A stretch of 64,000 bases of DNA from Closterium sp. NIES-65 (taxonomy: Eukaryota > Streptophyta > Zygnematophyceae > Desmidiales > Closteriaceae), in NCBI GenBank assembly GCA_948144175.1, contig CANXME010002189.1:1-64000 (forward strand). The letters run 5' to 3'. This document shows positions 16,306 through 46,246 of this stretch, in pieces. A program made the translations under genes and the position numbers. The notes under the pieces are model-generated. The model saw nothing but the letters and a program-made list of their open reading frames with translations. It had not been told where the DNA came from and did not search any database. Numbering within the stretch: position 1 is the first letter of the stretch; the number at the start of each line of letters is the position of its first letter.

Positions 16306-19300
16306 ATGGCGTCTACCACCCTCGCTCCTGCTGCGCCTGCTTCTGCTGCTGCGGCTGCGGCTGCTGCCACAACCGCTGGGGCGACTGCGATGATGATCCA
16401 GCAAGGCGAGCCTTCTGGAGCAAGAAAGCTCTCGGGCTACCTCCGAAAGGTGGGGGGGAATCCAAGCTGGTCTGGGAAATACCAGGGGCCACGTGTTCAG
16501 TCCTCGCCAGTGTATTCTCTAGTAACAGGGCCTGATTCTTCGCCACTTCGCGGACTTGAATGTCGCGCGCGCACCAAGAGCTTCGATAGAGATAGCACTG
16601 CTGCTACTGCTGCTGCTGCCACATCCGCGGGGGCTACTGCGGTGCTCGAGCAGGAGGTGCTTTTTGAGACGTCCCAAAAGGTGCTCCAGCAGCAGGACGT
16701 GCCGCGGCAGCAGCAGCAGGAGGAGGGGCGGGCGTGCGGGGTGGGCATCCTGCCGTTCCTAGAGGGAAAGCACGTGCTCATCACGGGCGCGACGGGCTTC
16801 ATTGGGAAAGGTGCGGCTTCTGGTGGTCACGGTGTGGTCACGGGCTTCATTGGGGTGCTTGCTCGTGGTAGGTGTCCACACGGCGATACTCCGTTTTGGT
16901 CCTTGGAACCTCTTTTCTCTTTCCCCCCCTTCTCTCCCCACGTCTTCTCGGCCTTTCCCCCGACAGTATTGGGGGGTAATTTTGAGAATTCTCTAACATA
17001 CGTCCTCTCTCTTTCCCCCCCTTCTCTCCCCACGTCTTCCCTTCCCCACGTCTTCCCTTCCCCCCGGCAGTGTTGGTGGAGAAGATACTGCGCGAGCAGC
17101 CGCGCGTGGGGCAGCTGTATCTTCTCATCCAACCCACAGCCCGCGCCACCGCAGCGCATCGCCTCACGCAACAGGTGCGTGCGCTGCTTGCTGCTTGCCG
17201 TGCTCTCAGGTTGGTTGCTGTTCCCGCCTTGCTGTTCCCTACCCCCGCGCCCCCACAACTAGAGCCCATTCCCTCGCCCCTGTTTCCCGCATCTGCGGCG
17301 GCAGCACACAACATATCCCTCCCTCTCCTCCTGCATTCCCCCTACCCAGGTCGTCCCGTCGCCCGTGTTCTCGCTGCTGCGCGAGCGGCATGGGGAGGGG
17401 TACGGGGCGTTCATGGCGGGCAAGCTGACGGCCGTGCAGGGCAACGTGGGGGAGGACGGGCTGGGACTGGCTGCCCACGCCGCTGCTGCTCTGCATGACT
17501 CGGTCGATCTGATCTTCAACTTCGCCGCCACCGTTGACTTTGAAGCCGAGTATGTATGTGCCGCGCATATGCATGTGCATCTGCATCCCATTCAATGGAA
17601 GCTCGTTTCAAGGCTGCGCGTTGAATACAGCCTTGATTCTGCATGTTGACAGCTGCGCGTGTAACCAGATGACTGCTGCGTCGACTCGACCCAAAAGCTT
17701 GTTAGAAGGCCATTGACTTGTCAGTGAGCGCGCGATCTCTGATGGGTTGGGTGATGAGCTGCTATCATCCGGAAAATGTATGTTGATCATCCAAACCATG
17801 TGTTGCATCACGTCGCGTCAGGAGTGTCGCATCCCAATGCCCTGTAAATTTGCTGTCCTCTTGAACCTGCCACGTGTCCTGTTCGACCTGCCACGTGTCC
17901 TGTTCAACCTGCCACGTGTCCTTCTGCGTGTCAGGTATGACGTGGCACTCAATATCAACACCATGGGCCCGCGGCGGGTGCTAGCCTTCGCCAAGAAGTG
18001 CCGGAGGCTTCAATTGCTGGTGCACGTGTCCACTGGTGAGCCGCATTTGCATTCGCATCTGCATCTCCGACCGGCTCACATGTACCTCTCTGGCTCGCAT
18101 GTGCATCTCTGACTGAATCGGTGTCATGCAGTGTCAGTGTGTATGTCACTGTAACATTGTTGCACACTGCCACAAGTACCGCCCGCCCTCTCTCTCCTCT
18201 CCCTCTCGCCCTCCTCCTTTAATTCCCCTCGCAGCCTATGTGAACGGGCAGCGCGAGGGGAGATGCATGGAGCGCCCCTTCTCTCCGGGCGACAGCATTG
18301 CTGCTGAGATGCTCGCCTGCTCTCCCACCCCCTCCGCCACCACTGCTGTCGCTGCTGCTGCTGCTGCTGTTGCTGCTACTTCCCCTGCTGCTGCTGCTGC
18401 TGCTTCTTCTGCTGCAGCTGCTGATTTTGCTGCTGCTGCTGCTGCTGCTGCTACGGCTGCCACCACTGCTGCTGCCGCTGCTGCCACGTCCCCTGCGGCG
18501 ACCTCGCAAGTCCCTGTGCTGGACCTGGATGAGGAGGTCGCACTGGCGTTGAGGGAGCGAGCGGCGGTGGAGGCAGGGGCCAAGGCGAGAGGGGCGAGTG
18601 CAGAGGAAGTGGCAGCGGCGGTGGAGGCGCACATGTCCGCCCTGGGTGCCGACAGGTGGGTGGGGGTGTGTGCGCTTTTGAGAATTCTCATAAGTGACTT
18701 ACAGTGAGGGAAGTGTTGGGTGCGCCTGGTCCTTGCACACTTTCACTTCCCTTCCATTCTCGTCCCTGTTCCATACCGTGCTGCTCCATCTCTCTCCTCA
18801 CCTTCCGGCTCTTACTTGCACCTCTTTCCCCTTCTCCGCCTGCTTTCGTCCCTGCTTTTCCTCCTCTGCTCCCCCCTCCCCCTACCCCAGGGCGCGTACC
18901 TTTGGGTGGCAGGACGCGTACACGCTGTGCAAGGCAATGGGGGAGATGGCGCTGGTGGAGCAGCAAGAGGGGGCGGAAGGGGAGGGGGAGGTGGGGGGGA
19001 AGGCTGGGGGAGAAGCGCGTGTGCCGGTGGTGGTGGTGCGGCCCAGCATAGTGGAGAGTGCACTACACGAGCCCATGCCTGGATGGATCGAAGGCTTTCG
19101 GTGAGTGAGGGTGCCATGCCACGAGCCCATGACACGAGCCCATGCCACGAGCCCATGCCACGAGCCCATGCCATGCCACCACATTGTGTGTCAGTCCTCA
19201 CCTCGCGCTGTCTGCTCGCTTGCGTCAGGCACATCCCCCAAGCATTCCGTTGTACCTTTCCCCCTCACTCACTCTGGTCCTTTCCTTGGCACCGGCCCTT

Positions 19301-20975
19301 CTCACTTGTGCCTTTTGTGTTGGTGTTGTGCAATCATTTATGTGCCTTTTGAGGTGCCTCACAAGTCTTGTGCAAGCACCAGTGTGTGTGCCACATGCCA
19401 TTGTCTCTCATGGCAAGCAGCAAGCTTTTCACTTGAAACACTCCCACTTGTCTTCTCCCTTCCGTTGCGCCTCCCCGTCTCACGCTCTTATCACACTCCT
19501 CCCAATCTTCACACTCTCGTCTGTTGCGTGGTGCCAATCACAACCGGCCCACAATACCAGGGTGGCGGATCCAGTGCTGATGGCGTTTGCCAAGGGGGAG
19601 ATAATGGGCTTCCACGCTCCGCCACACGGCATCTGCGACATTGTCAGTCACACCACCGCCTTGCCTCGCCTCGCCTCCTCCCTTCCACCGCCTCGCCTCG
19701 CCTCCTCCCTTCCACCTCCTCGCTCGTCCCTCCCCGTGGCTTATTGCATTCTTAACAAATCTTGTTGCCATTTCTTACCTTTTCCCCTTCTTATCCCCCC
19801 TTTCTTCTCCTTCCCCCTCCCCCTCCCCCGCAACACCTTCCCCCGTCCCCCTCCTCCTGGCCCCCTCTTTTAGATCTGTTGCATTGTTAGCCCGTCTTAC
19901 ACTTCCTCTTCCCCTCTTGATTCTCTATATTCTGTCTGATCTGCCTATGAACCACATGCCACATGTGTGGGCAGCAGCAAGCAAACCCTCTCTACTGCTG
20001 CTTTCTGTTTGTCCCGACCCGACTGTTTCCCACATTCAGATTCCAGTGGACCTACTAGCCAACGCTATCCTTGCCATTGCTGCCAGCAATGCAAAGCCAC
20101 CACGGAGTGCCATTCGACCCACTTCCAAGCACCATCTGCCCCCTGTCTACCATGTGACGTCTTCGGATGCTAACCCGCTGTGCTTCAACGAACTGTTTGC
20201 TGCCACCACCAAGCATTTTGCTGCCAATCCCATGAAGCGGAAGGATGGGACTGCAATCTCTGTGTCCCGTATGATAGCCTTTCCATGGCCGGTGCTCTTC
20301 ATGGCTGCTATTTGGTTTCAGTATGAACTGCCCAGGCTTGTGAGTAACGTCTCCTCTTGCCCATCCTTGGTTTTTTTTGTATTGGCCCTTTTTTCCCCTC
20401 CTCACCTCACTCAATCTTCCTACCTTTGCACAATTGTGTTGCAGTTGGTGACACTTGACCCTAGAAATGGACCAGCACAGAAGCAGCGACAGGCTGCAAA
20501 ACTGACCAAGAGGCACAATCAATACAGGCGCTTAGCTAAGCTGTACATGCCTTACTGCTTCGGGAAGGCACTGTAAGTTATAATCCTTGTTACAGCACAA
20601 TCAATCCCCGCATGCACAATCACAGTATTTGTCGATCTCGTGTTTTGCCTCTTTGCAAGTCTGTGTTTCTCTTGGCCAACCGTTGCCTCTGCATGCAGAT
20701 TTGGCTCCAGCACATGGAAAACCTGTTCTCTTTTGAGTCGACTCAAAAGCACGCATGCACAATCAATCACAGCATTTGCTGACCTCATGTGTTGCCTTGC
20801 CTCTGCATGCAGGTTTGACTCCAGCAACATGGAACACCTGTTCTCTGCAATGTCACCTGAAGAGCAGCACAGGTTCAATTTCAACGTTCGTAACATCAAC
20901 TGGAACCACTACCTGTGCCATGTTCACTTCCCTGGCTTGCGCAAGTTCGTTCTGAAGGAAAAGGCCCTTAAATAA
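16306..20975 (+). CDS. FAR: Fatty acyl-CoA/acyl-ACP reductase, MS2/CER4 (FAR) family, 10 exons
   Basis: The enzyme reduces activated fatty acids to primary alcohols with NADPH. Exons by protein continuity and GT-AG sites: 16306-16810, 17071-17174, 17350-17549, 17935-18035, 18235-18655, 18891-19100, 19561-19642, 20040-20339, 20445-20572, 20813-20975. They sum to 2214 nt, 737 residues, in frame. Exon 1 encodes an Ala/Ser/Arg-rich leader of about 150 residues (MS2-type plastid targeting is likely) and then the Rossmann motif TGATGFIGK. Exon 6 has the YTLCK catalytic YxxxK motif and VRPSIVES. Exons 8-10 are the FAR C-terminal domain. Exon 5 carries a long poly-Ala insertion from CTG/GCT repeats. 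The start is the first ATG of the open frame; an upstream exon cannot be excluded. Introns contain duplicated exon edges and palindromes. Confidence 0.92.
16660..16680. repeat. Palindrome-family member inside FAR exon 1
   Basis: CTTTTTGAGACGTCCCAAAAG with one arm mismatch. It is read in frame within the coding leader as LFETSQK and flanked by related GGTGCTC-AGCAG segments (16641-16656 and 16680-16696). This is the only member found in a coding exon. Confidence 0.7.
16909..17080. repeat. Duplicated intron 1 end plus exon 2 start with an AATT-core palindrome
   Basis: Two copies of a CT-rich intron end, acceptor and exon 2 start (about 16909-16976 ending CAGTATTGG, and 17004-17080 ending CAGTGTTGG) are separated by TTTTGAGAATTCTCTAA at 16980-16996. 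The second copy leads into real exon 2. Confidence 0.82.
17863..17922 (+). repeat. 21-bp tandem repeat, three copies, just upstream of FAR exon 4
   Basis: Three copies of a unit containing CCTGCCACGTGTCCTGTTC sit in intron 3 and end 12 bases before the acceptor at 17934. Each copy contains the palindrome CACGTG. The same hexamer is amplified in ABC1K intron 10. Confidence 0.85.
18343..18488 (+). repeat. Coding CTG/GCT trinucleotide expansion in FAR exon 5
   Basis: Inside exon 5 an interrupted run of GCT/GCC/GCA codons encodes a poly-Ala tract of about 50 residues with occasional Thr, Ser, Pro and Val. It lies between a conserved YVNGQREG block and the [15 protein letters not shown] helix. 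Enzymes of this family normally have a short loop here. It probably forms a disordered or helical insertion. Whether it is retained in mature mRNA needs RNA evidence. Confidence 0.8.
18675..18694. repeat. AATT-core palindrome in FAR intron 5
   Basis: CTTTTGAGAATTCTCATAAG, 20 bp, 20 bases after the exon 5 donor. No clear flanking duplication is visible at this site. Confidence 0.7.
19113..19172 (+). repeat. Intronic repeat copied from FAR exon 6
   Basis: Four to five copies of a ~14-bp unit (CACGAGCCCATGC) start 13 bases after the exon 6 donor. The same words occur once inside exon 6 (19066-19079, coding HEPMP), so the repeat appears to have been seeded by exon sequence. Confidence 0.75.
19346..19365. 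repeat. GGTGCC-core palindrome in FAR intron 6
   Basis: CTTTTGAGGTGCCTCACAAG, 20 bp. Flanks share only TTGTGCAA on the two sides, so any duplication is short or decayed. Confidence 0.65.
20610..20847 (+). repeat. Duplicated intron end plus exon 10 start, separated by a palindrome
   Basis: Bases 20610-20730 and 20752-20847 are diverged copies of the same segment: intron sequence with GCATGCACAATCA, the acceptor GCATGCAG and the first ~35 bases of exon 10. Between them lies the perfect 20-bp palindrome CTTTTGAGTCGACTCAAAAG at 20730-20749. The second copy continues into the conserved C-terminus and is the real exon; the first is a ghost exon. Confidence 0.85.
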
Positions 20976-21290: not shown

Positions 21291-24200
21291 ACATGGCCGA
21301 GGTGGCCAGCATCCTAAAGGAGCACGTGGAACACACGTTATTCCTTTGTCCTAACGGACAACCGCCAGCAGACTGAGGAGACGCTCTATGCGGTAGCTGC
21401 CTACGGGGGTCGAAAAGGGTTGCCCAGGAGCCATGAGAATCTGAGGTCGGGGTGAATGGAGGGTGTGCCGCTCCTGTCGAAGAGGAGGAAGCGGAGTTTC
21501 TGTGCTTGCTTTATGCTGGAGAGTGTGCGTTGTCGCTTCTTGGTAGATTGGCGTTTGCTTCTCCACATATAGATCTTGAAGGCGATAAGGAATTGGGCTA
21601 AAATCAGTTGCAGTATCTCAAAGCTCGAGGAGGAGGAGTTGTGATATCTGTGGGCGCTGCGTGCATTCCACAGCGTCTTAACTGCAGCTCCCACAAGTAG
21701 GCTCCATGGGGGGGACTGTCCCACTCGTGACTGTATCGGGAAGAAAATGTGCTCGGCGGTGGTGTTTTGTCCAAGGTGGCGGTCAGCGACAGTTCGGAGG
21801 GCCGAGATGACATTTCCGGCGGAGGAGCATTCGAAGAAGATATGCGGCAATGTCTCGACGACAGCAGCTGGGCAACGAGAACAGATCCCACGATCGTCAA
21901 AGTATTGGAAACGTGACCCTGAGGGGAGGGTGAGCGTGTAAAGTCTGAAAATGATGTCCCGCTGGCGGCTCGGCTGGTCCTTGAGAAATAAGTCCTTAAG
22001 GCCAGGGAGAGGAGGAGGAGGAAGGGTGAGGTCGCGGGTCCATCGGAGGTGATGAGTTAGCAGTTGTGCTGAGTAGAGGAGACGGCGGATGTCGGCGATG
22101 CTGGGGGTGCCGTCCTGTAGAAGGTCTACCCTAGCTCCTAGCCCTGCCCCTATGTGAAGTGGCCCTGCGAGCCACCACTCCCTGACGTGCACCTCCACGA
22201 GGTCTTGTAATCGGAAGAGTCCGGTGGCAGCTAGGTCGCGGGCGATACGCTTGTTTGGCGAGACATTGTGGACAGTAGCCGAGACGGAGGAGGGGGGGAA
22301 CGAAGGCGACAACTTGGAGGGCGAGATGAGAGATGGAATAGTGGTCGTCCGAAGGCATAAACCAGTCTCCTGGAGAGGCAGAAGAGGCGTGTGGGGTTCG
22401 GAGGGCGGCCCACCAGAGAGGTTTAATAGCCTTGACAAGGTCTGGGAGGATGCGTGCTGCGTCTTCTTGGAATTCCTCCGGGACTAGGGAGCAGAATTTT
22501 TCTACAGAGATGGGGCCGACATGAAAGTTGGTGATCCGGACAATGTGTCCGATACGAAACTGCCCTGTAAGGAGGAAGCGTTCGTGTTGGCTGGTGCCAG
22601 AAGGCCGGTTGTCGGGTTTGAGGAGTACGCGGTTGAAAGCGATAGGTTCGGTGAGGATGCATTGCATTCGTAAAGGGGGGCCATGAATGACCAGGGGAAG
22701 GGAGAGGAGGGTTTTTAGTTCGTCCAGCGCCCGGGGGGGGATGAATGTTGGGAGATAGTGTCGTTTGAGGATGGCTTCGTGGGAGAGTAGACCGTGTAAC
22801 CCGAAAGGGAACGGGGTCAGGGTACGTGCTACTTCCTCAGAGGGGGTTGGTCCGAATCTGCGCAGGGCGCGCTGAATAGCAAGAGCTTTGATTTGTGTTG
22901 ACGGGGCAATCGCCCCGACCCCGCCGTCTTGCGGGGAGTTGTACAGGAGGGCTTTGGAAATGAGGCGTTGTGCGAGGCCGTCTTGTTTGTGTTTCGAGGA
23001 CGAAAGAAAGTTCCCAGCTGACACATCCATTGGTTTGATTATGTCTGGTGGGGCGGGTTGAAAGTGTCCGGGAAATGAGATGACAGAGTTCAGAAAGATT
23101 GAGGAAAGGGATTTGCGGCACGTAACTGTGGCGTGTAAGGCTGCCAGGAACTTGGCGGTGCATTGTATGCGGGCGAGAGCCTTGTTCCAGGTGGTGGAGC
23201 CTGGGTGTAGACGCTCGACGTAAATTTCGAGGATGCGTTCTGCCTCATTGGGAGCGCAGATGGGTATAATCCCTGCGTGCACGAGGTCAGCAGGGGGGAT
23301 ATTGAATGGAATTATGGAGCATTTGTTCCAGTTGGGGACCTCCCCGGAGACCGATCCAAAGATGCCAAGCAGCACTACAACATGTCCGAGCTCTGTGTCT
23401 GAGGTGAGGAAAAGGGTGACGTCATCCGCGTAGCACGCCATGAGGCGGCGTTGTGTGGAGGACAGGGCGAAACCGGGAAGGAATAGGGACATGTAGTGCT
23501 GAAAGATCTCCATGACACAAACGAAGAGCAAGGGAGCCAGTGGGCAGCCCTGTCGAACACCAGTGCGGACGGGAAAGGTGGGGCCGAGCATGTTGTTGAC
23601 CGAGATGCGTGTATGCGTGTCGGAGTGCATTAGTCGGACCCAGTGGATAAAAGGTGCGGAAAGCCCCAGGACTGATAAGGCTTGGAGGAGGAAAGGCCTA
23701 TCAACGAGGTCGTAGGCTTTGCGAAAGTCCACCGTAAGAGCGAGCAGGGGGGACGAAGAGAAGGCCGCCCAGTCCATGATATTAAGGGTATCGTTAATCG
23801 TGTCTCCTATTTTTCTGTGTTTGATGAAAGCAGTTTGGGATGGATGGATGAGCTGGGGGAGGTCGAGCTGGAGGCGGTTAGCGAGGCATAGCGCGAGTAC
23901 CTTGTAGTCAGCGTTCATTAGGGTGATGGGGCGAAGATTTTCCACTAGCGATGAGTCCCCCCTCTTGGGGATAAGGACCGTTCGTCCGATCAGCATGGAT
24001 GGAGGGAGGCAGGAGAGTGGCTCTGGAGGTGAGAGTAGGGAGTGGAAGGCCGGTGCGAAACGCGGGGAAAATTGTCGAAAGAGCTCCCCGGGGAGGCCAT
24101 CTTGGCCAGGGGTTTTTCCTCGTGAAAGAGAGAGGGGTGCTTTTCCGATTTTTGCTAGTGAGAGGGGGGCGCTGAGTCGAAGGAATAAGGGGTTTGGGAT

Positions 24201-25960: not shown

Positions 25961-25983
25961 TTGAGTGCGCTAAAAGATCCATA

Positions 25984-27220: not shown

Positions 27221-28566
27221 ATGCCTGCGCCATGTTTCCGCGTGGTCTCCGCCAGGCGCCTCCCTGTCCCCCTACAGCGCGCGCATTCGTCGCCTTCGGG
27301 GGAGCGTTCCTCCGCACGCGCGTGCTCACGGACGGCATGGAACGTCAGCAGGCAGGCGGACAGACGGATGAGCGTCGCATGCCGTGCAGCAGAGAGCGGT
27401 GACGTGGCACCTGCTGATTGGGTGAACACGGCAGGGACGCACAAGCGGCCCCAGCAGGTGTTCTACTCCAAAAAGGTGCGCCACGGGCCTTCGAATAGGG
27501 TTAAAAGAGGACGTGGGCGGGGGGCGAAGGGAGGAGGTGGGATGGTGAGGGCGGAGCAGTGAGGCGACGTGAAGAAGATGCATGGAATGAAGGGCGGCTT
27601 TTGAGCGGATCCACAAGTCTCCAACGGTTCGAGTGGAGACGGGGAGTGCATTTCCGCACCTGTCTTTATGCACATCATCCCACGCACGTACATGGGTGCA
27701 CTGGTGTCTGCCAATGGCCAATCGTGACGTGCATGCACTACTGCACGCCTGCCCTCTCGCGCTGAACACCACACAGCGTTCTGTTGCTGCGTGCCATCCA
27801 TTGCCTTGTTGTGCCGTGTGACGTGACGTGGCGTGGCGTGGGTATGGCATGGCATTGACGTGGCATGACGTTAAATGGGCATTACGTGACTCGCAGGGTG
27901 AGAAATTTCTGTTACAAACGGGCGAGAGGATGGAGCTGATGGAGTTACCCGAGGGTACAAGAGTGGTGTACCCTGGACTGTGCAAGGATGGCGAATCCAA
28001 CCCCAACAAGGCCAGTGCCACACCACGCCTCACGCATTGCACTCCCTCCCTCTCGTGCACCCGCACACACACACACAACATGCATCCTGCAATGGGTTCC
28101 TCGCAATTTGTTTCCGATCGAGTTGTCACTCGCTCATGGGAGTCACTTTTGAGATTTCTCCAAACGGATCCACTTGTCCTGCTCCTGCAGCTCGCTGGAA
28201 TGTCTGATCATGCGCTGTGCTCTGCTGTCCCTCTATCCACCTGCCACGTCTCACATCCGCTCTAATCGCTTCCTGCCGCATGCCTGCCGCCTTCCCAACC
28301 GCCCCTGCTTCGCCCCTCCCCATCTCTTCTCCTTTGCTGGCCTTCCAACTCTGCCCCCCTCCTTTCCCCCTTTTCTCCCCACTTCCCCCTTCTTTGTCAC
28401 GTGCGCACATGGGCATGCACGGCCACGTGCACGTCAGAGCAGATGCGAGCCATGATACGGCACGCTCTGGACAACCCTGTGGGGCAGCCGCCGCTAAAGG
28501 AAAGACTTCAGCAAATCAAGCACGCCAATCCCAACCCCAAGGTGCGCTGCTGCTGCCGCCGCCGCC

Positions 28567-28600
<34 letters not shown>

Positions 28601-31600
28601 TTGCTGCTGTTGCTGCTGCTGCCGCTGCCGCTGCTGTTGCTACTGCAATCCATTGTCTCGATTGCCCTCTTTTCCAGGTGCCTTTTCCAGGTGCCTTTTC
28701 CAGGTGCCTTTTCCAGGTGCCTTTTCCAGGTGCCTTTCCCAGGTGCCTTTTCTGGCTGGCAGGGCAGCTCCGTTCTTCTTTCCACTCCCAATGGCACTCC
28801 CTAACCTCTCCATCTCCAACGCCTCCCTGCACTAGGCGCTCATGTCATGTCACCCATGCACAACGCCCCACATCCCCATCCCAACCATCCCCCACCTCCT
28901 CCACCGTCCCTCCCCTCTCTCCCGGACTCATCCTCCCCTCAACCTCCCCACACCCCCTCCCCCCTCCCCTCCCCCCCTCACCCTGGCGGTCTTAAAAATA
29001 CACTCATTTCAAGTGGCTAATCCTTCCCTCAACCTCCCCACCCCCCCCTCCCCCACTCTCACCCCTTGGATCTTGGGTTGCCCCCTTGGATCTTGGGTCG
29101 CCCCCTTGGGTCGCCACCTTGGGTCGCCCCCTTGGGTCGCCCCCTTGGATCTTGGGTCGCCCCCTTGGATCTTGGGTCGCCCCCTTGGATCTTGGGTCGC
29201 CCCCTTGGATCTTGGGTCGCCCCCTTGGATCTTGGGCAGATCCTGATGGCGTTTGACGATGTGAGCGTGCCGCTGCCGCCCATGCGCCGCCCGGACTTAC
29301 GGCAACTGATCTTGGAGGAGGCGGAGAGGGACTGCGTGGCGGCGGGCATCACAGACATCCGCTTCGTGTGCTCCATCGCTCTGCACCGCTTCGTTCGCCC
29401 GGACGAGTTCCGGCACATCTGCGGGGGGTACCTGTACGGCAAGTACTACCCGCAGCGCATGGGGAATTACAACGCTGTTGATATGCACGAGACTGTGGAC
29501 ATCGGTGTCACACGGCACGGGGAGGCTGTTCAGGTGAGGGGACTTCTGAGACGTCTCAAAAGAGGAATTTAAGACATCTCATCTCAAAAGTTTCTAGACG
29601 TGTCAAAAGAGGAATGGAATTACAATGCCGTGGATATGCACGAGACTGTGGACATCGGTGTGACACCACACGGGGAGGCTGTTCAGGTGAGGGGAGATGG
29701 GGGGGGAGAGGGAGGGGGTGGTGTGCGGGAGGTGGGAGAGTGGAGGGATGGTGTGAAGGGTCGGTGTTGTGGGCTGCGAAGCTTGCATTTCCATGGCCAC
29801 AGGCCCACAGCAGTTCATGCAGCGTTCTCGTCAGTACTTGTTATCCATCCGCTGCTGTTGCCGCACTCTTCTCTTTGTCCCTACCCCTGCGCTGTGCTGT
29901 GCTGTGGCATGGCACTGCGGCACGGCGGAATGACGTGGCATGGCAGATCAACCGGCACTTTGCGGAGGCGGATCTGGTGGTGTATGCGAATGTGAACTAC
30001 GTGAGCATGGACGGCGGGTACAAGTCCTACGCCACTGGCCTCGTAAGCTCTTGTTGCGCTCACACCTGGCCTGGCTGAGTTGCGCTGAAAGCTGGGCGGG
30101 TGGGTTGGGCTGCTGAGCTGGGCGCATGGAGAGATGGGCCGAGTGGGAGGTGGAGGGAGTGAGGGGATGGAGAGAGGGAGGGTGGTGATGGGTATGTTCG
30201 GAGAGTCCTGGGTTGTTTTGTGGGTGTGTATTGAAAGAGCCGCTTTCGTGCACTGGCACTGTGCGTTAAGTTTGTGTTCTGTGACTTGTGCGTGTGTGGA
30301 TATGTGGTTACCTGGTTTGTTTCTGTATGTGTGTGTGTGCGCGCGCGTGCCCGCGCACGTGTGTATGCGTGTGCGTGTGCATGTGTGTGTGCATTCATAT
30401 GTGAACATGTGTATGCGTGCATGCAGGTGCATTACAACTGTCTGCGCCACAACCACGACTCCAACACACTGCGCAACACCAGGCATGCCTTGACCTGAAG
30501 GGGGGGGCAACACCAGGCATGCCTTGACCTGAGGGGGGGGGGCAACACCAACACCTGTGTATTGCTACAATTCAACACCAACGTCTCCCATGCCGTGTGG
30601 CTCTAGTCGGGCATTCCAGCCATGGGCAACAGCTTGCATGCTGCTGAGTCCTCATCTGTGCGCTGTGTGCACATGGCTGGCTGGCAGGTCGCTGTTTGAC
30701 CCGGCGCGCAGTGCGCTGCACAGGTCGTTCCACCGCATCGGGCGCATGATGCAGAAGCACACCGACGTCTTCCATGTCGAGACTGTCGTTGACGACCAGG
30801 TGTGCCATCCCATGCCGCATGCCTGCACGCCCACTTGCTTCCATTCCCACATGCCCCCATGCCCCCATGCCCCCATGCCCCCATATCCACATGCCTGCAT
30901 GCCTGGACGCCAGCATGAGCACGTGGGCGATGATGCCTACCTGCCCGTCAGCCTCCCTGCGCCATGCTCCAGCTTCCCTGCACCATGCTCCAGCTTCCCT
31001 GCACCATGCCCCAGCTTCCCTGCACCATGCTCCAGCTTCCCTGCGCCATGCTCCAGCTTCCCTGCACCATGCTCCAGCTTCCCTGCACCATGCTCCAGCT
31101 TCCCTGCACCATGCTCCAGCTTCCCTGCGCCATGCTCCAGCTTCCCTGCACCATGCTCCAGCTTCCCTGCGCCATGCTCCAGCTTCCCTGCACCATGCTC
31201 CAGCTTCCCTGCGCCATGCTCCAGCTTCCCTGCACCATGCTCCAGCTTCCCTGCACCATGCTCCAGCTTCCCTGCACCATGCTCCAGCTTCCCTGCACCC
31301 CCCCTCCCCATTCCCCCACCCTCCACCGCTCCTTGTCCCCTCCCGCTGCAGCTGTTCCCGTTCTACGTGGGCTTTGTGTCAGAGCTAGTGCGCAACATGA
31401 GCCCGCTGCAGAAGCTCTTTATGCACTCCACCATTCTGCTGCTCAAGGTGCGGCCTCCACGCTGCTGCTGCTCAAGGTGGGTCCAGGGAGTGAGAAGTGG
31501 AGAGGGGAGTTGCCACCAGCACCAGCAGTGCCACCACCGCCGCCCCTATGTTCCCGTTCTGCGCTGAGTTTGTGTCGGAGCTAGTGCGCAACAAGAGTCC

Positions 31601-34600
31601 GCTGCATAAGCTCTTCATGCACTCCACCATTCTGCTGCTCAAGGTGGGCCAGAGGAGGGGGGGGGGAGCGAGGATGTGAGGAAGGTACGAAAGGGGAGGA
31701 AGGTACGAAAGGGGAGGAAGGTACGAAAGGGGAGGAAGGTGAGCAAGAGGTGAGGCTTGAGCAAGAGGTGAGGCTTGAGCAAGAGGTGAGGCTTGAGCAA
31801 GAGGTGAGGCTTGAGCAAGAGGTGAGGCTTGAGCAAGAGGTGAGGCTTGAGCAAACGGAGAGCCAGCACACCTTTCCTCAGCCTGAATTTCCTTGTCTCT
31901 TCCCTTGTGTGCTTTTTTCCTCACCCCCTCCTTTCCTCGCCCCTCCCCTGTCTCTCTCGCTCTCTCCCCTGGCATGCACCAGCTGTTGCCGCTGTGGCTA
32001 TGCGTCAAGGTTTTCTGGTTCATGCGAGCCCCGTTCGGCCTGCTGCAGGTACGGCAGGGCGGGGGAGGGGAGGGGAAGGGGAAGGGGAAGGGGAAGGGGA
32101 AGAGGAGGAGGGGGGGTAATCACAATTTCTCCTTGTCTCACAGCTTGGCATTCCAGTGTGGCAAAAGCTGAGTTGTTTTGCTGGCGAGCAGTGGAGCTAA
32201 TGCTGTGCGGCGTCGCAATCCTAATTCGTGCGGTGCGGTGCGGTGCGGTGTGGGGCGGTGGTGCAGGTGACAGCAGGGGAGACCCAGGCGGTGCATGAGA
32301 GGACACTGGCCACCATATACCGGGACAAGGTCATGGACGTGCAAGGGCAGGTGAGCTGAGAGCAGGGGGTCCCACCCACCCAAGAGGGCCCATGACTTTG
32401 TCCCAAGAGACAGAAGCATGAAAGAGCCGAGTTGTGTTGAGCATTTTTTTTAGAGAGGGCTAGACTGACTGTAAGCAGCATGTCAAGCCTTAACGTGCTT
32501 CTGAAACACTATTCCATTTATCGTATGTTGGGCTTGGTCTGCCTTGCCGTTGACCTTCTCTTCCCATTACCATAGAGTCATAGACACCCTTGGTGTTCCA
32601 TGCAGACCCTTGGTGTTCCATGCAGACCCTTCTGCATTGCCCTTACTTCCTTCTCTCCCCACCTGACCGCGTGCCCTGCTGCCCTGCTGCGCTGCCCTGC
32701 TGCCCTGCTGCGCTGCCCTGCTGCCCTGCTGCGCTGCCCTGCTGCCCCCAGGCGGACATCCTCATTCTGGCGCCCAGTGCGTTGGGGCCGTACACCAAAG
32801 ACATGTTCCTCAACCCCCTCCTCGTGCGTATGAAATCAGCCGTGTTCTGAGTCGACTCACAATGACCCATGTTTTTCTAGTCGACTCAAAGCTCAGTGCG
32901 TTGAGGCCCTACACCAAAGACATGTACCTCAACCCCCTCCTCGTGCGTATACCCTTCTACACGTGCTTCACTGCACCGCACCGAACCACGTCGCACCGCA
33001 ATGCACTCTCCCGGCTCAAGCGCCCTGTGCGGCTCGGATACGCTCTCTTCAGTGCGTTGATCAAGCTTCTGTGCTGCTGACCCTCGTATGAAGCTTGATC
33101 AAGGTGCTGTGGATGCATGGGCAACTGCACAGGCGCATGCCCGTGTGTGTTCACGCAACCCATTCACCCCTTGTTTTCCTTGCCATGTCTTGCTATGCCT
33201 GCGCATGCTGTGTGCTGTGCTGCTCCCATCATCCGTCCCCATCCATGCTCTTCTCATCCGTCCCCATCCATGCTCTTCTCATCCGTCCCCATCCATGCTC
33301 TTCTCATCCGTCCCCATCCATGCTCTTCTCAGTCGCTCCGCACTCTAACCGCCCCGCGTGCCCCATGGTTGTATGAACCCATGCAGGTGAACACATACGC
33401 GCTGGGATACTATTACAACATGTGAGTCGAGTTTTGAGTCGACTCAAAACTAAACACATGCGCACTGGGATACTATTACAACATGTGAGTCGAGTTTTGA
33501 GTCAACTCAAAACTAAACACATGCGCACTGGGATACTATTACAACATGTGAGTCGCACCACTGCGCACACTCATCATACCTCACGGGAGTACATGCTGTA
33601 TGCTCAGCCCCATGCCTCCACACAACTGTGTTGTTACCTGCCATTGCATGCCAACTTATGGCTGCTTGTTTCACAGATATTCCCTCCACTTCTTTTCCAC
33701 CTTCCTTACCCCACTAGTGCTCCTTCCCTCCCGCCCCGTGCAACTCCCCCCAATCTCCCACCCCTCCTTCTCCCCCTCCTCTCTCCCCCAGGTATGTGGA
33801 CGGCGTGCCTCTACTCAAGGAGGGCGGCTGTGTGGTGAGAGACCGTGCCATGAAATCACATGCCATGCTACGCTACGTCATGCCATGATGCCATGACACG
33901 CCACGCGTACCATGTGATGACATGCCGTGCCATGCATGTTCGATTGGAGGAGCGCACTCACAGGGTGCCCATGCTCACATCACTGCACCTGCCTGCGACA
34001 CCTCTCATCTGCAGACATCCGTCCTGTCCCTGCATTCATCCACTCCACTCCACTCCCCCTCACCACAGATAATGGTGAACGAGATGAACTACGAGTGGTC
34101 ATCGCCGGCGCACGACGCGTACCGGCGGCTCTTTGAGGAGGTGCTGGCAGTGGCTCCAGGGCTGGACGAGTTTGAGCGCTTCCAGCAGCAGTTCGTGCAG
34201 GACGAGCACCTGAATGACATCTACCGCCAGGGCCTGGGGCCTGCTGCCGTGCACGGCTTTTACATGTACACGTGGGCCGCTCACGGCATGGATAAGGTGC
34301 GTGCTGTGGGTGTCTGGCGTGGGGTATGTATGGTTTGTGCAGGACGAGCAGCTGAATGACATCTACCGCCAGCCGCCTGGGCCTGGGGCCCGCTACCGTG
34401 CACGGGTTCTACATGTACACGTGGGCCGCTCACGGCATGGATAAGGTGCGTGCTGTGGGGGGTGTGGGGAACGTGGGTCATGGGGTGCTGGGCATGTGAC
34501 CATACAGTACGATGTCTGGTGGCATTGTTGGCGCTTCTGCTCATGCTCATGCTGTCGTAGCCTCTCTTGTTCGCGCACCTTTGCCGCCCCTCTGTTTCCC

Positions 34601-35872
34601 CCATTCTCCCCTTCTCCCACTCCGCCTTCCCCCTTGCGCCTGGGCAGGTGGGCAAGGTGTATGTGGTGGGTGCTGTGGACCCGCGGGGGCCGGCTGTGCT
34701 GCGCTGGGAGATGGCGGACAGCATACAGGACGCAGTGGACCAGGTGATTACCCACTGGCACAAAAGGTTGACTTTTGAGTCAACTCAAAAGTCAATGAGC
34801 TGGGAGATGGGAGACAGCATATAGGACGCAGTGGACCAGGTGATTACCAACTCCTTTTGGTAAACTCCAAGCGAGAATAGGCCTATGTGTAGGAAAGGTT
34901 GACTTTTGAGTTGACTCAAAAGTCAACGTGGTGGGAGATGGCAGACAGCATATAGTGGACCAAGTGACACCACGCCCATGCACCTACCCATGCTCCTGCC
35001 CATGCTCCTGCCCATGCACCTACCCATGCTCCTGCCCATGCTCCTGCCTATGCTCCTGCCCATGCTCCTGCCCATGCTCCTGCCCATGCTCCTGCCCATG
35101 CTCCTGCCCATGCTCCTGCCCATGCTCCTGCCCATGCTCCTGCCCATGCTCCTGCCCATGCACCTACCCATGCTCCTGCCCATGCTCCTGCCCATGCTCC
35201 TGCCCATGCTCCTGCCCATGCTCCTGCCCATGCTCCTGCCCATGCTCCTGCCCATGCTCCTGCCCATGCTCCTGCCCATGCTCCTGCCCATGCACCTACC
35301 CATGCTCCTGCCCATGCTCCTGCCCATGCTCCTGCCCATGCTCCTGCCCATGCTCCTGCCCATGCTCCTGCCCATGCTCCTGCCCATGCTCCTGCCCATG
35401 CTCCTGCCCATGCTCCTGCCCATGCTCCTGCCCATGCTCCTGCCCATGCACCTACCCATGCTCCTGCCCATGCTCCTGCCCATGCTCCTGCCCATGCTCC
35501 TGCCCATGCTCCTGCCCATGCTCCTGCCCATGCTCCTGCCCATGCTCCTGCCATGCTCCTGCCATGCTCCTGCCATGCTCCTGCCCATGCTCCTGCCCAT
35601 GCTCCTGCCCATGCTCCTGCCCATGCTCCTGCCCATGCTCCTGCCCATGCTCCTGCCCATGCACCTACCCATGCTCCTGCCCATGCTCCTGCCCATGCAC
35701 CTACCCATGCTCCTGCTCATGCTCCTGCCCATGCTCCTGCCCATGCTCCTGCCCATGCTCCTGCCCATGCTCCTGCCCGTGCTCCTGCCCATGCTCCTGC
35801 CCATGCTCCTGCGCATGCACATACCCATATCCGTACCTGTACCCATACCCATACCCATACCCATATCCATAT

Positions 35873-35966
<94 letters not shown>

Positions 35967-35967
35967 C

Positions 35968-35999
<32 letters not shown>

Positions 36000-36288: not shown

Positions 36289-37341
36289 TGCTGCCGTGTG
36301 GAATCTGCCTCACACTGTTGTGTCACACTGTCACGCTGCCCGCTTTTGAGGCGCCACACAAGGCACACTGTCACACTGACGCACTGCACTGCCCATCAGC
36401 CTCTCTGCAAGAGACTCAGCTGCTGCACATGCGGTGCGATTCGGTGTGGTGCGGTACGATTTCCATGCTAGTTGTGTGAAGGATTTCAAGAGTGTAACTG
36501 TGGTCCTGGAGTATGAAGGGTGCCATGTAGAAGGCGTTATATGCAGGGTATGTGTTGTTCAGCGAAAGCTTATGACCTGGATTAGCGTGGGCGCAATGAT
36601 AAACTGTCAAGCTGTCTGAGAATATACGGTACGGTAACAACAGTCTGGCAGGGCAAAATACCAGTCTACAATCGTAGCACTTGGTAATCAGAGCCACTTT
36701 CCTCTTGTACCGCGCATTTTTCTGCAACCAGCTCTCGTAATTTATTTTTTTCCTTCTTCACTCTAAGGCATAAACACCCCTTGGCATACTAGGCTAGGAG
36801 CCGTTGCCCTCGTGCTCTCTCGCAAGCATGTGCAGTCAAGACCGCGCCTTCCACCTCTCCTGCCTCTTTCTCCTCTCCTTCAATCCTCTTAGCTCCATCT
36901 GCTTTGGGTCAGCACCTTGTGTATCTCTGCTTCCACAGTTCACTTCTGCTTCTGCTTTGCATTCTCACAAACAGGTTCTTCTGGAACAAGTTCTGTAAGT
37001 ATACCGCAACATGAATAGGTTGTGCCTACAAGCAAGGCGAAGTCAAGGTAGCAAAACCCTGAAAGATGAATTACAATCACGCACGGTATGCCGAAAACAC
37101 TCTATACAATACTGCCTCCAGCCTGGGGCTAAGGATGTGCATGCGTTTTAACATAAAGACACGTCAGGTATGCGCCCATTCCAGCAGAGAATACTTTCAA
37201 AGCCATCCCAAATCTATGCTCCTAAACCAGCCGGTCCACGCGAGACTGGGACACGAGAGAGGAGAAGGGCTGGGAGGATGGTAGAGAGGGAGACAAGACA
37301 AGGACTGCTTGAGAAGAGTGGTTGTAGAGACTACGGCGCAG
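36289..37341. other. Convergent intergenic region between LarA-like gene and desaturase
   Basis: About 1 kb holding the 3' ends of two convergent genes. It contains one palindrome-family member (36343-36362, CTTTTGAGGCGCCACACAAG) flanked by a short duplication of CACACTGTCAC. I see no gene or RNA in the rest. Confidence 0.5.
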
Positions 37342-39787: not shown

Positions 39788-39842
39788 GGCGCCCTATGAG
39801 GTCAACTTCTGAGACGTCTCAAAAGGTGCCCTATGAGCTCAA
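39788..39842. repeat. Palindrome with flanking microduplication in the desaturase 5' region
   Basis: GGCGCCCTATGAGGTCAA (39788-39805) and GGTGCCCTATGAGCTCAA (39825-39842) are two copies of an 18-bp segment separated by CTTCTGAGACGTCTCAAAAG (39806-39825). The site lies directly upstream of the desaturase ATG, probably in its 5' UTR. Confidence 0.85.
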
Positions 39843-44000: not shown

Positions 44001-46246
44001 CGCACTGACTGCATGCTCTCACTAGAGCTCACCCCCACACACCCATCCCCCCATACCCATCCCCTCAGTGAGCTGTTTGGGCGGATAGACAGGGTGGTGG
44101 TGCCGCGCATGTATCCCGAGCTCACCACTCGCCGCGTGCTCATCATGGAGTGGATCGATGTGAGCTGTGCTTATAGTGGATCCATGTGAGATGTGCTTGT
44201 ACTGGGTCGATGTGGCATGTGAGGAGTAGGTTGATGCGAGATGCTTGCACTGAGTCAATGCATGCATTGTGTGACCCAAAAATGTTTATGGCAGATTCGC
44301 GCTTTGCTTCCCCATCTCACTCCCTCCCGTCCTCTCTCTCCCTCTTCCTGCGTGTCACACACAGGGCCAGCGCCTGGCAGACAGCAAGGACGTCAGCCTT
44401 GTGGAGGTGAGAGGGGGTGGTGAGGGGGTGGTGAGGGATGAGAGAGGATGGTGAGGGGTGAGAGAGGGTGGTGGAGGTGAGAGCACCTCCTCCTCCTTCA
44501 AATGGTCCCTGCCATTCAAAAAAGCCTCATCAGTTCCATTTTTTCAAAGCACGCACCAGCGCCCCAGCTCCTGCACTTCCTCCTTTCTCCCTCAATTTTG
44601 ATCCGTCTCAATCCCTCATCTGCTTCTCCTTCCCCGTACCCCTCTCATCCATCCCCTTGTCTATCCCCCCTCCACCCACAACCTATCCCTCCTCCACCCA
44701 CTACCCGCCCGTCACACAGGTGGGCGGGTACTGCTCACTCTCACAGCTGCTGGATTACGGATTCTACCACGCCGACCCTTGAGACGTCGCTAAGGCCCTC
44801 CTCCACGCACTATTTATTCCTGCCATCCCCCCAACTTCCCCCCCGCTCTCCCCCCACAGGTGGGAGTGTACTGCTCGCTGTCACAGCTGCTGGACTATGG
44901 CTTCTACCACGCCGACCCGCATCCCGGCAACTTCCTCCTCACGCGCGACCAACGCCTTGCATACCTGGGTGGGTGAGCTGGCAGCTTGAGGGGAGCGCAC
45001 CTGGGTGGGTGAGCTGGCAGCTTGAGGGGAGCGTACCTGGGTGGGTGAGCTGGCAGCTTGAGGGGAGCGTACCTGGGTGAGCATGCCTGGGCATGGGGCG
45101 CATGGAGCGTGACATGTGGGAGGCGTTCATGTGTCACTCACATGCGGTGACTGAGGTTGGTGTTGTGTCTCACCAACCCACCTACTTACCGCACGTTTCC
45201 TTTCACCCCCCGGCCAGACTTTGGCATGATGGGGCGCATGGATCGGGATGTAAGAGAGGCGTTCATCCGAGCAGCGGTGCATCTGGTCAACCGCGAGTTT
45301 GACTTGCTCGCAGGGGACTTCGTCACTCTCGGGTGAGCTGCGTTTTCTCGCCTGGGTTTGCCGTGCATTCCTTAGTCGACTCAATCGTCACCTCATCCGA
45401 GCAGCGGTGCATCTTGTGAACCGCAAGTTCGACCTGACTTTTGAGTCGACTCAAAAGTCACCTCGTTACAATGGCACACGACATCTTGTGAACCGCGAGT
45501 TCGACCTGCTGGCCGGGGACTTAGTCACCCTTGGGTGAGCCGCATTGCAATCGTCTCCTTTGCACCCTCTCGCTGACTCTCCACTGCACAGTCTACACCT
45601 CCTCCGCACCTTCCCGCCCAGCCTGCTGTTCCCGGGGCACGCGATGGGCAAGGCGTCATACATCCTTCTCCCATGTCCGCTTCCCTCCTTCTCTGCTCCC
45701 CTTTTCCCTCTCCCACCGTGCAGCCTACTCCCACCGGGGCAGGAGATGAGCGAGGTGTCGTTCGCCCTCACGGCCATATTCAAGGATGCGGTCAGCTCCG
45801 GCGTGCGGAACATCAGCTTCGGCAGCCTCGCCACTCAGCTCGGCCAAACCATGTACGCTCGGCCTAACCACGTGGGCTAAGCCGAACCACGTGGGCTAAG
45901 CCTAACCACGTGGGCTAAGCCGAACCACGTGGGCTAAGCCTAACCACGTGGGCTAAGCCGAACCGTGTAGGCCAATGTGTGCTATACTGCCCAACGCTGA
46001 ATGCTCCAGGTCGTCATGTCGTCATCCCCATCCAACCCCTCGCCGGTGCACCCTTCCCCTGGTGGTTCGCTGCTACTCCCATCATGAGCCTGGATCCTTG
46101 GGCTAGTGCACCCTTCCCCCTGAGCCAGGTACAACTTCAAGATGACTTTTGAGTCGACTCAAACCCTCCCCGGTGCACCCTTCCCCTTGTGCCAGGTACA
46201 ACTTCAAGTTCCGCCTGCCTGCTTATTTCTCCCTCGTCGTTAGAAG
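41003..46246 (+). CDS. ABC1K: Plastid ABC1K (UbiB/ADCK-family) atypical kinase, 11 exons visible, 3' end outside window
   Basis: These kinase-like proteins act in plastoglobules and membranes on prenylquinone and tocopherol metabolism. Exons: 41003-41650, 42015-42053, 42580-42750, 43142-43330, 43555-43598, 44069-44159, 44365-44406, 44860-44968, 45218-45332, 45724-45852, 46196-46246. The N-terminus is a Ser/Arg-rich probable transit peptide. Motifs in order are KIAQAVSSRP (the KxGQ position, here with Ala for Gly), PPEYVDELSLLQD, the Ala-rich loop AAASLGQVYEA, VAVKVQRPG (Lys), EMDYEQEAQN (ExD), VLIMEWID, HADPHPGNF (catalytic loop) and DFGMMG. The general organisation resembles the plant ABC1K3 type, but the exact subfamily is uncertain. 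Exon 11 ends at 46246 and the next intron is filled by the 27-bp array, so the last exons lie right of the window. Exon edges are repeatedly duplicated. Confidence 0.93.
42403..42648 (+). repeat. ABC1K exon 3 start and an upstream diverged copy
   Basis: Bases 42403-42469 (ACGATCCCTCCGGACTACGT ... CTGCAGGACCGCAGAGCGCC) are a decayed copy of the first ~65 bases of exon 3 (from 42580). The copy lacks a good acceptor and is probably not spliced. Confidence 0.78.
43805..44159 (+). repeat. 129-bp tandem triplication covering ABC1K exon 6 and its acceptor
   Basis: Copies of the exon start lie at 43811, 43940 and 44069, exactly 129 bp apart, each preceded by its own CAG. Only the third continues into the conserved VLIMEWID and a donor. 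The intervening sequence is free of stops in the exon frame, so skipping the first two acceptors is not forced by the reading frame. Use of an upstream acceptor would add 43 or 86 residues in frame. Confidence 0.9.
44720..44968 (+). repeat. ABC1K exon 8 and an upstream ghost copy ended by a palindrome
   Basis: The ghost copy at 44720-44778 has an acceptor (CACACAG) and encodes the start of exon 8 up to YHADP, then runs straight into a palindrome-family member (44777-44795, CCTTGAGACGTCGCTAAGG), whose TGA is an in-frame stop. The true exon 8 at 44860-44968 carries the full HADPHPGNF catalytic loop. Inclusion of the ghost copy would truncate the kinase before its active site. Confidence 0.88.
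44959..45080 (+). repeat. 36-bp tandem repeat containing the exon 8 splice donor
   Basis: The sequence ACCTGGGTGGGTGAGCTGGC is repeated three times at a 36-bp period from 44962, with a fourth partial ACCTGGGTGAGC near 45070. The first copy holds the real exon 8 donor, so three to four equivalent 5' splice sites lie in tandem. Confidence 0.85.
45087..45134 (+). repeat. Decayed copy of the start of ABC1K exon 9
   Basis: GGCATGGGGCGCATGGAGCG ... GAGGCGTTCATG resembles the real exon 9 start at 45224-45268. It lacks the DFG Asp codon region and is not expected to be used. Confidence 0.7.
45262..45533 (+). repeat. Exon 9 end in three copies with palindromes between
   Basis: The 3' half of exon 9 (45262-45332) recurs at about 45391-45434 and 45482-45533. 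A decayed member TTAGTCGACTCAA lies at 45372-45384. A perfect 26-bp member lies at 45435-45460, with core GAGTCGACTC and outer bases TGA/TCA. The last copy again ends with a donor (GGGTGAGC). Confidence 0.88.
45611..45670 (+). repeat. Decayed copy of the start of ABC1K exon 10
   Basis: CCAGCCTGCTGTTCCCGGGG followed by GCGATGGGCAAGGCGTC parallels the acceptor and first ~45 bases of exon 10 at 45721-45770. It is a further intronic ghost of the neighbouring exon. Confidence 0.72.
45863..45973 (+). repeat. 19-bp minisatellite with CACGTG in ABC1K intron 10
   Basis: About six copies of CCGAACCACGTGGGCTAAG, alternating CCGAA and CCTAA starts, begin 10 bases after the exon 10 donor. Each has the CACGTG palindrome. 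Confidence 0.9.
46043..46213 (+). repeat. Duplicated intron end plus exon 11 start with a palindrome
   Basis: The segment GGTGCACCCTTCCCC...CCAGGTACAACTTCAAG occurs at about 46108-46141 and again at 46172-46213, the second leading into real exon 11. Between them is TGACTTTTGAGTCGACTC followed by AAA (46143-46163). An earlier partial copy lies near 46043. Confidence 0.85.

Follow-up and report, generated by a model that had tools for sequence, protein, structure and literature searches.

Here, we ask why a short palindrome should recur between duplicated pieces of host DNA in the green alga Closterium. The question was raised by a 64-kb stretch of Closterium DNA (contig CANXME010002189.1; hereafter, the window), in which an initial annotation had noticed a family of ~20-bp palindromes lying at junctions between two copies of a neighbouring host segment (X). 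We found that the insert has a constant centre, TTTTGAG-NNNN-CTCAAAA, flanked by outer arms that are variable in extent and recur between loci, the whole insert measuring ~20-52 bp and often forming a perfect palindrome; that its four-base core is mostly one of four self-complementary tetramers; that the majority of the inserts in the window stand between copies of X; and that insert and duplication are present in one paralog and absent together from another. Short of an even chance, we tentatively favour an explanation in which both ends of a staggered break are tailed on the same short template and the identical tails are then joined. Genome-wide counts given below refer to the 874-Mb assembly (2400 contigs) of Closterium sp. 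NIES-64, in which the window was placed on contig C1891; C followed by a number is a contig of that assembly, and L followed by a number is a fetched stretch or locus.

The palindrome family and its flanking duplications

In the whole-genome search proposed in the initial annotation, CTTTTGAG-N4-CTCAAAAG with up to two mismatches was found at 51,893 places (~59 sites per Mb) compared with 211 for the reversed control pattern, and the sites lie in intron-bearing genes and on contigs of up to several megabases. The whole window has 14 sites with at most three mismatches in the 16 arm bases, and the core is exactly 4 nt long at 14/14 of them, although 0-12 nt were permitted; consistent with the earlier statement that copia elements and a 27-bp array are spared, no site at this threshold lies within the copia part, the long interspersed nuclear element (LINE) or the array. 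At least 17 sites had been counted originally. In bases 1-46,600, we recovered 15 sites matching at least 13/16 arm bases, compared with 0.2 per Markov-1 shuffle (10 shuffles), and, in addition, decayed copies at 16979, 29590 and 32844 with 12/16 (four such matches versus 0.6 per shuffle). The decayed copies at 32873 and 44776 match at 11/16, a level reached 8.9 times per shuffle by chance alone, and they are therefore accepted on the basis of their position; one further decayed copy was read by eye at ~45369-45388. A de novo palindrome search of the same 46,600 bases (score of at least 8) gave 10 palindromes, eight of them in this family, whereas ten shuffles gave 0-4. Similarly, among the perfect palindromes of at least 18 bp listed for 246 kb, 52 belong to the family and three others are visible besides N runs, while shuffled sequence contains none. 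Altogether, the shuffles, the reversed control pattern and the perfect palindromes rule out a chance origin.

The cores are restricted. Among 114 sites, a number that includes array members and is thus not made up of independent cases throughout, 101 have the self-complementary cores TCGA (53), ACGT (20), GCGC (19) or AATT (9), and 12 of the 13 remaining cores differ from one of these four by a single base (by eye). The other twelve possible self-complementary tetramers do not occur as cores at these sites. The initial annotation had listed TCGA, ACGT, AATT and GGTGCC; the first three stand, and GGTGCC is probably a decayed GCGC core.

Because the genome is rich in tandem repeats, the flanking duplications require careful control. 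We used a dovetail test, in which the suffix of the left flank is aligned against the prefix of the right flank, and applied it likewise to 3000 random positions away from palindrome sites. With short-period arrays masked, 12 of 18 sites in the window score at least 12 compared with 12.0% of the random positions (binomial 8e-8); approximately 12 junction sites had been named originally. Without masking, 15/18 sites score at least 10, but so do 39% of random positions, and a raw alignment of left and right flanks is not striking by itself. Masking lowers the score at 16979 to 4.0, because a short tandem repeat in one copy is masked, and that at 34903 to 3.5. The random positions scoring at least 25 form five clusters, of which four are known palindrome-free duplications. 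No convincing duplication is present at 18675, 27598 and 28146, and that at 19346 is weak. The duplicated spans in the window extend from 17 bp (39806) to ~95-123 bp (20730), much as first described (~15 to over 100 bp), and, overall, the duplicated neighbouring segment measures ~13 to ~120 bases.

The same arrangement is found elsewhere in the genome. In twenty 10-kb stretches, whose site density is not typical because they were selected around matches, we identified 97 sites with at least 13/16 arm bases; 68 of the 96 testable ones score at least 20 compared with 25% of 1500 random positions, in an unmasked test that counts array members singly. In ~266 kb, 138 centres comprise 61 single sites with a near-exact duplication, some of them array ends, and 30 in multi-copy structures, a count made without a random control. 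Near-exact X measures 16-66 bp among 47 sites (some of them array ends). For example, 47-bp copies surround AAATCACTTTTGAGAA|TTCTCAAAAGTGATTT at L134:4516, 44-bp copies surround GAGTGACTTTTGAGAA|TTCTCAAAAGTCACTC at L128:3836, and 19-bp copies surround a 52-bp perfect palindrome at L132:4612. In fresh cases such as L123:8308 and L124:8346, in which the copies are identical at 60/60 and 23/23 positions, X adjoins the palindrome within a few bases.

Paralogous loci, arms and arrays

The LarA-like (PF09861) gene of the window (27897-36285), for which 15 exons were found and a spliced protein was assembled that matches a Closterium sp. NIES-64 protein at 100% identity, has a diverged paralog on C2090 (91% and 79% identity in two matched stretches). 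At the positions of 32844/32873 and of 33431/33494, this paralog has a single X and no palindrome; the 34772 region has no match in the fetched paralog stretch. A second comparison is provided by contig C831, on which the window parts 32640-33492 and 44640-46260 recur with 87-100% identity and local rearrangements, and which represents either a segmental duplicate of recent date or redundancy in the assembly; the vegetative cells of Closterium are haploid. C831 shares the inserts at 45438 and 46146 with the window. In addition, X - CTTTTGAGGCACTTCAAAAC - X on C831 corresponds to a lone X in the window; at this site the redundant halves differ between the two, while the neighbouring flank is identical at 562/569 positions. 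This pattern fits an older insert that was probably lost from the window by recombination between the copies. Because a loss is likely, we regard the two loci as a presence/absence pair rather than as proof of a recent gain.

The arms extend beyond the constant centre in recurring ways. In the TCGA class, the arm continues as GACTCAAAAGTCACCTCGTTACAATGGCACACGACACATTTT, and the first 27 bases of this long arm, GACTCAAAAGTCACCTCGTTACAATGG, occur 221 times on one strand and 222 times on the other when up to two mismatches are allowed, compared with 0 for the control. Among 20 fetched long-arm loci, two of which (L151 and L162, on C43 and C700) look like mutual copies and one of which (L165) is the C831 copy of a window site, 16 have near-exact duplicated flanks of 12-61 bp, a count without a random control. 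Isolated sites were obtained at 17 of the 20 loci; leaving out L160, where a different site was measured, the long arm is 29-47 bp and the other arm is 8-22 bp at 16/16. Having been picked for a long arm, these loci inform on arm symmetry only, and their very unequal arms argue against joint trimming of both arms in a single hairpin there. Of the 62 arms at 31 isolated, unselected TCGA sites, 53 measure 10-19 bp. The far part of a 47-bp unit, searched alone, occurs at 34 and 32 places; in 20 loci chosen from among those with no visible partner in the long-arm matches listed, several of them being mutual copies, 17 of 22 far-part matches are joined to the centre (at most four changes in 14 bases).

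Units are also strung together. At L178 (C718), a single insert consists of a left tail, 11 head-to-tail 47-bp units, each starting with GACTCAAAA and finishing with TTTTGAGTC, and a right tail, with one duplication of X around the whole (by eye). Arrays repeat from centre to centre, with periods of 37, 47 (C718), 63, 64 and 77 bp as well as 42 bp (L131) and 53 bp (L125), and L129:8027 has a second GACTCAAAAGTCACCTC run, as repeated tailing would produce. At L125:9353-9493, a 20-bp tandem array of GTGCCTCAAAAGTCGCAAAA-like units represents a half palindrome amplified alone. The half-site NNCTCAAAA was found away from a centre only 49 times on both strands of ~266 kb, arguing that no element with such ends is abundant there, and no longer element with palindrome-type ends was found in these ~266 kb. 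A coding-gene origin of the 47-bp unit was considered and dropped, as the reading frames beyond the unit disagree.

These observations bear on the three explanations offered initially. A mobile palindromic unit and a footprint of joined ends both agree with the exact centre, the variable arms, the presence/absence pairs and the finding of one arm sequence beside differing flanks. The third, hairpin-primed repair that copies local sequence, is rejected as a source of the arms, whose sequences recur at many loci and are thus not local.

How the insert and the duplication may arise

The explanation that we favour, with the reserve stated above, is that the two ends of a staggered break receive templated tails and that these identical tails are then joined. 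A double-strand break with a long stagger (13 to ~120 nt) would open in host DNA, and filling in of the overhangs would leave each end with a copy of X. Each 3' end would then be extended on one short template, which could be the 5' end of an RNA or a DNA end, by differing amounts but always to the same template end. The resulting tails, ...CTTTTGAG-NNNN, would have self-complementary last four bases and could anneal through NNNN, or be joined end to end, to give X - palindrome - X; fragments tailed at both ends could be strung together into arrays. If identical tails anneal by their last four bases, then a self-complementary core is required, whereas a hairpin loop has no such requirement. 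Templated tailing accounts for the exact centre, the restricted cores, arms that vary and are often unequal, the duplicated flanks and the chains of units.

Several observations weigh against this explanation. No template, enzyme or RNA was identified, Rfam having 0 matches in 14,500-46,400 of the window, and every step, from the staggered break to tailing and annealing, is therefore inferred, as is what kind of molecule served as template. In ~266 kb, 47 of the 138 centres have no near-exact duplication. The junctions give no clear microhomology signal among 47 sites, at which overlaps and fillers are mixed and inflated by array ends. Tailing alone does not account for two properties of the arms: they are equal within 1 bp at 16 of the 31 unselected TCGA sites compared with 7.6 by shuffling, and at AATT and ACGT sites with both arms longer than 14 bp the two arms are of the same subfamily in 5/5 cases (by eye), which speaks against a random choice of tails. 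That arms are equal too often favours a palindromic donor somewhat, although hidden subfamilies could be the cause. Moreover, 5 of the 22 far-part matches are not joined to a recognisable centre, two of these five being copies of one locus. At the position of 29543, two exon-end copies in the C2090 paralog are separated by a G-rich spacer that contains no palindrome, an arrangement that resembles a protein of strain Naga37s-1; copies within each locus are more alike than between loci (by eye), such that either the duplications may be independent or gene conversion may have acted. This pattern speaks against a simple requirement of a palindrome for each duplication. Finally, local duplications of high identity without a palindrome are common: among 129 non-array duplications in ~266 kb, 92 lack a palindrome, at least two of which (L122:1820 and W:44715) are palindrome cases missed by the filter, and 37 have one; with a second setting, the numbers are 45/68 and 23/68. 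The initial annotation had held that duplications arising independently of the palindromes would refute the association, and this applies in part, at 29543 and in the palindrome-free duplications; at 32844/32873 and 33431/33494, palindrome and duplication are absent together.

Duplications with and without a palindrome differ in their spacers, which are at least 50 bp in 71 of the 92 palindrome-free cases and 20-49 bp in 22 of the 37 palindrome cases. A few palindrome-free spacers look like decayed palindromes (by eye); based on matches of at least 9/16, however, decayed palindromes are found in 41% of 39 such spacers versus 33% of 699 controls, and, based on at least 11/16, in 5% versus 2%. 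There is no codon-phase signal in palindrome-free duplications (70 versus 67 ± 3). With neither a clear enrichment of decayed palindromes nor a codon-phase signal, the proposal that the palindrome-free duplications are old palindrome events is not supported. Synonymous differences are in excess in the window (23/37 changes; seven donor-side rows, two of which belong to one pair, and one acceptor-side row). The genome probably has at least two sources of local duplication. In L122-L150, non-array duplications of ~20-80 bp with long spacers are common, and many look like exon ends copied into introns (by eye). Palindrome-free partial exon copies are also present in introns of the window (31353-31450 / 31549-31646 and 34191-34310 / 34333-34459); the former duplication is single in the C2090 paralog, and the NIES-53 protein P0006 has a tandem copy of the exon duplicated at 34191/34333.

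The main rival to templated tailing, which we consider unlikely though worth serious attention, is a mobile palindrome of very small size. Such a unit, either a folded hairpin or a short double-stranded palindrome of at most ~100 bp, would be captured or inserted at staggered breaks after its outer parts had been trimmed, and its centre would survive, either held by a protein or as the hairpin tip that is recognised. Perfect palindromes of up to 52 bp (L132), the ~52,000 copies, the excess of equal arms and the shared subfamily of both arms fit such a unit. The 16/16 long-arm loci with very unequal arms do not, and a hairpin loop need not be self-complementary, yet 101/114 cores are; moreover, random donor fragments should often lose the centre, whereas 17/22 far-part matches at the chosen loci keep it.

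Alternatively, the palindrome could be cut by a dimeric endonuclease to give self-complementary ends of 4 nt, the fragments being ligated elsewhere and into arrays. This reading, which we hold to be improbable, would make sense of the 7-4-7 symmetry, the four self-complementary cores and the repetition of array units from centre to centre; by itself, it leaves unaccounted for both the first insertion at a site lacking the palindrome and the duplication of X on both sides.

Two further readings are in our estimation very improbable, each to a similar degree. The first is a conventional DNA transposon or miniature inverted-repeat transposable element (MITE), with the palindrome representing joined or internally deleted terminal inverted repeats (TIRs). 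MITEs and other TIR transposons have inverted symmetry and flanking direct repeats, together with a fixed duplication length and conserved outer ends. The inverted symmetry, the short direct duplications and the high copy number are shared by the palindromes described here. However, the duplication is not of fixed length (16-66 bp among the 47 sites and up to ~120 bp in the window), which agrees with the original judgement that it is too variable for a transposase; the centre is constant, yet the outer ends vary from copy to copy; and half-sites away from a centre are as scarce as described above. According to the second, this genome is generally prone to local tandem duplication, and the junctions acquired their palindromes later, either by insertion or by origin in place. 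The many palindrome-free duplications, the 31353/31549 duplication that is single in the paralog and the palindrome-free duplication at the position of 29543 speak for it. On the other hand, the paralog lacks palindrome and duplication alike at 32844/32873 and 33431/33494, and X abuts the palindrome within a few bases in the fresh cases.

An assembly artefact or allelic duplication, to which the identity between C831 and parts of the window might point, is hardly credible: PacBio reads with an N50 of 30 kb, assembled with Canu, should span such structures (PMC10407611), copies are often diverged, and the motif is present at tens of thousands of places.

The window in detail and comparison with known systems

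The window contains copia-type open reading frames at 4.2-12.4 kb and intron-rich host genes, whose names, except for that of the LarA-like gene, were assigned by eye. The palindrome sites are listed in Table 1. The palindrome at 16661-16680 is apparently in an open exon of the reductase-like gene (by eye) and would be an in-frame coding insert; the palindrome at 39806 adjoins the start codon of a desaturase-like gene (by eye); and the right arm of the palindrome at 45435-45460 extends as GACTCAAAAGTCACCTCGTTACAATGGCACACGACA to ~45483.

Table 1. Palindromes of the family and associated duplications in the window
Position	Insert	Flanking copies and context	Dovetail score
16661..16680	TTTTTGAGACGTCCCAAAAG, ACGT core	Short direct duplication, ~16642-16660 / 16681-16702	12.5 (masked p 0.11)
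16979..16998	Decayed, AATT core	Intron-end copies, ~16907-16978 / 16999-17082	39.5 (unmasked)
18675..18694	CTTTTGAGAATTCTCATAAG	Apparently intronic; no convincing duplication	
19346..19365	CTTTTGAGGTGCCTCACAAG, probably decayed GCGC core	Weak duplication, 19324-19345 / 19366-19391	10.5 (masked p 0.15)
20730..20749	CTTTTGAGTCGACTCAAAAG, perfect palindrome	Intron end and exon start, 20607-20729 (123 bp) / 20750-20844 (95 bp)	
27598..27617	Weak family member, 13/16	Without duplication	
28146..28165	Family member, 14/16	No convincing duplication	
29543..29609	Compound: 29543-29562 and decayed 29590-29609	Exon end and donor copies, 29463-29542 / 29616-29695	
32844..32892	Two decayed palindromes	Exon-end copies, 32775-32831 / 32894-32950	
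33431..33513	X-P-X-P-X: palindromes (P) 33431-33450 and 33494-33513	Three 43-bp exon-end copies, 33388-33430, 33451-33493, 33514-33556	
34772..34922	34772-34791 and 34903-34922, extended to 28-30 bp	Exon-end copies, 34703-34756, 34799-34852, from 34923	
36343..36362	CTTTTGAGGCGCCACACAAG	19-bp copies, 36324-36342 / 36364-36382, downstream of LarA-like stop codon	12 (masked p 0.12)
39806..39825	CTTCTGAGACGTCTCAAAAG, exactly 20 bp	17-bp copies, 39789-39805 / 39826-39842	13 (masked p 0.11)
44776..44795	Decayed, ACGT core, 11/16	Intron end and exon start, 44665-44775 (111 bp) / 44796-44915 (120 bp)	
45369..45484	X-P-X-P-X: decayed ~45369-45388 and palindrome 45435-45460	Copies from 45263, 45393, 45482; ABC1K-like gene (by eye)	
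45696..45800	Empty site	Single X; near-identical C831 copy is X - CTTTTGAGGCACTTCAAAAC - X	
46146..46165	CTTTTGAGTCGACTCAAACC	Intron end and exon start, 46106-46141 / 46173-46208	

A non-LTR retrotransposon (LTR, long terminal repeat) on the minus strand (22134-25628) has a reverse transcriptase domain, RVT_1 (22134-25016), and an endonuclease domain, Exo_endo_phos (25023-25628), in separate frames; it adjoins the reductase-like gene, and near its 3' end at 21.25 kb is a short stem-loop, TTGAT-TACG-ATCAA (by eye). A 27-bp-type tandem array occupies ~46250-64000 with a strong strand skew; its unit was read by eye in 46.25-47.2 kb. The LarA-like protein is common to other green algae, and, among named non-algal matches, a protein from a Latescibacteria metagenome-assembled genome is 59% identical over 95%; a horizontal origin of the gene is possible.

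Among the nearest likenesses in known systems are insertions of interstitial telomeric sequences (ITSs) and of telomerase-RNA sequence (TERC-ITS) at mammalian breaks, in which a short sequence is copied from an RNA at a double-strand break (Nergadze et al. 2007, PMC2246262). They share a variable extent around a constant core, and oppositely oriented insertion from one RNA is discussed in that paper (PMC2246262). The empty orthologous or paralogous site that marks TERC-ITS insertions was found here as well: two window sites are empty in C2090, and one is empty in the window and filled in C831. Target duplications were described there at 6/130 rodent and 4/25 primate loci (PMC2246262). TERC-ITS insertions are, as that source presents them, few and made of telomere repeats, whereas Closterium has ~52,000 palindromes with four self-complementary cores and duplications at most sampled sites.

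In plants, paired nicks reportedly lead to tandem duplications (Schiml et al. 2016). Staggered breaks there yield short direct duplications like those seen here, but a constant junction palindrome is not known to belong to that process. Non-LTR retrotransposons, which insert by target-primed reverse transcription, have variable-length target duplications. Such duplications are present here too; however, in contrast to LINEs and short interspersed nuclear elements (SINEs), the Closterium inserts are palindromic, have no orientation and are not part of a longer element at the sites read, and no 3' tail was seen by eye at the 20 long-arm loci. Helitrons, by comparison, leave no target duplication, whereas duplications are present at 12/18 window and 68/96 other sites.

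Introners, which are short and in some cases carry inverted repeats, occur in introns across diverse eukaryotes; their target duplications, where present, are 3-9 bp long (PMC9860276). They make introns, whereas the duplications in Closterium are 13 to ~120 bp, with copies also outside introns, and, at 32844 and 33431, the paralog keeps the intron position without the insert (splicing as judged from the sequence). In the Volvox organelle genomes, short hairpin-forming palindromes in introns and spacers make up ~80% of noncoding nucleotides and are often inserted in one another; they are called inert in the nucleus and proliferate in organelles (PMC2670323). The strings 'target site' and 'duplicat' do not occur in the text of that paper. 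While these palindromes are described there as organellar, those of Closterium lie in intron-bearing genes and on contigs of up to several megabases.

The initial annotation knew of no described system of this form, and we found no description of such a palindrome family in the open-access literature, subscription papers not being covered; the string 'palindrom' does not occur in the text of the Closterium genome paper (PMC10407611). Viral contigs gave 0 exact matches to the TCGA form. In 257 Gb of prokaryote genomes, at least 117 stretches match the 16-base arm pattern compared with ~60 expected for random sequence with equal base use, which gives no sign of the family there.

The system could turn out to be an extreme variant of template-directed end joining. 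Templated tailing predicts that a transcript, or a DNA end, terminates at the centre of the palindrome and that tails CTTTTGAGNNNN are captured at induced breaks. Units of 20 bp could escape standard repeat finders. If insert and duplication are one event, then this would be the smallest nuclear mobile unit known to us or a new template-driven end joining; it would also account for part of the incomplete exon copies that Closterium introns contain. We speculate, with somewhat more doubt than confidence, that Closterium mends or exploits staggered breaks by means of template-copied 'sticky adaptor' tails, which would have left more than 50,000 palindromic scars, most with duplications and many reshaping exon-intron borders. 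If insert and duplication are indeed one event, the process would, at such a scale, have affected how genes are built in an alga related to land plants.

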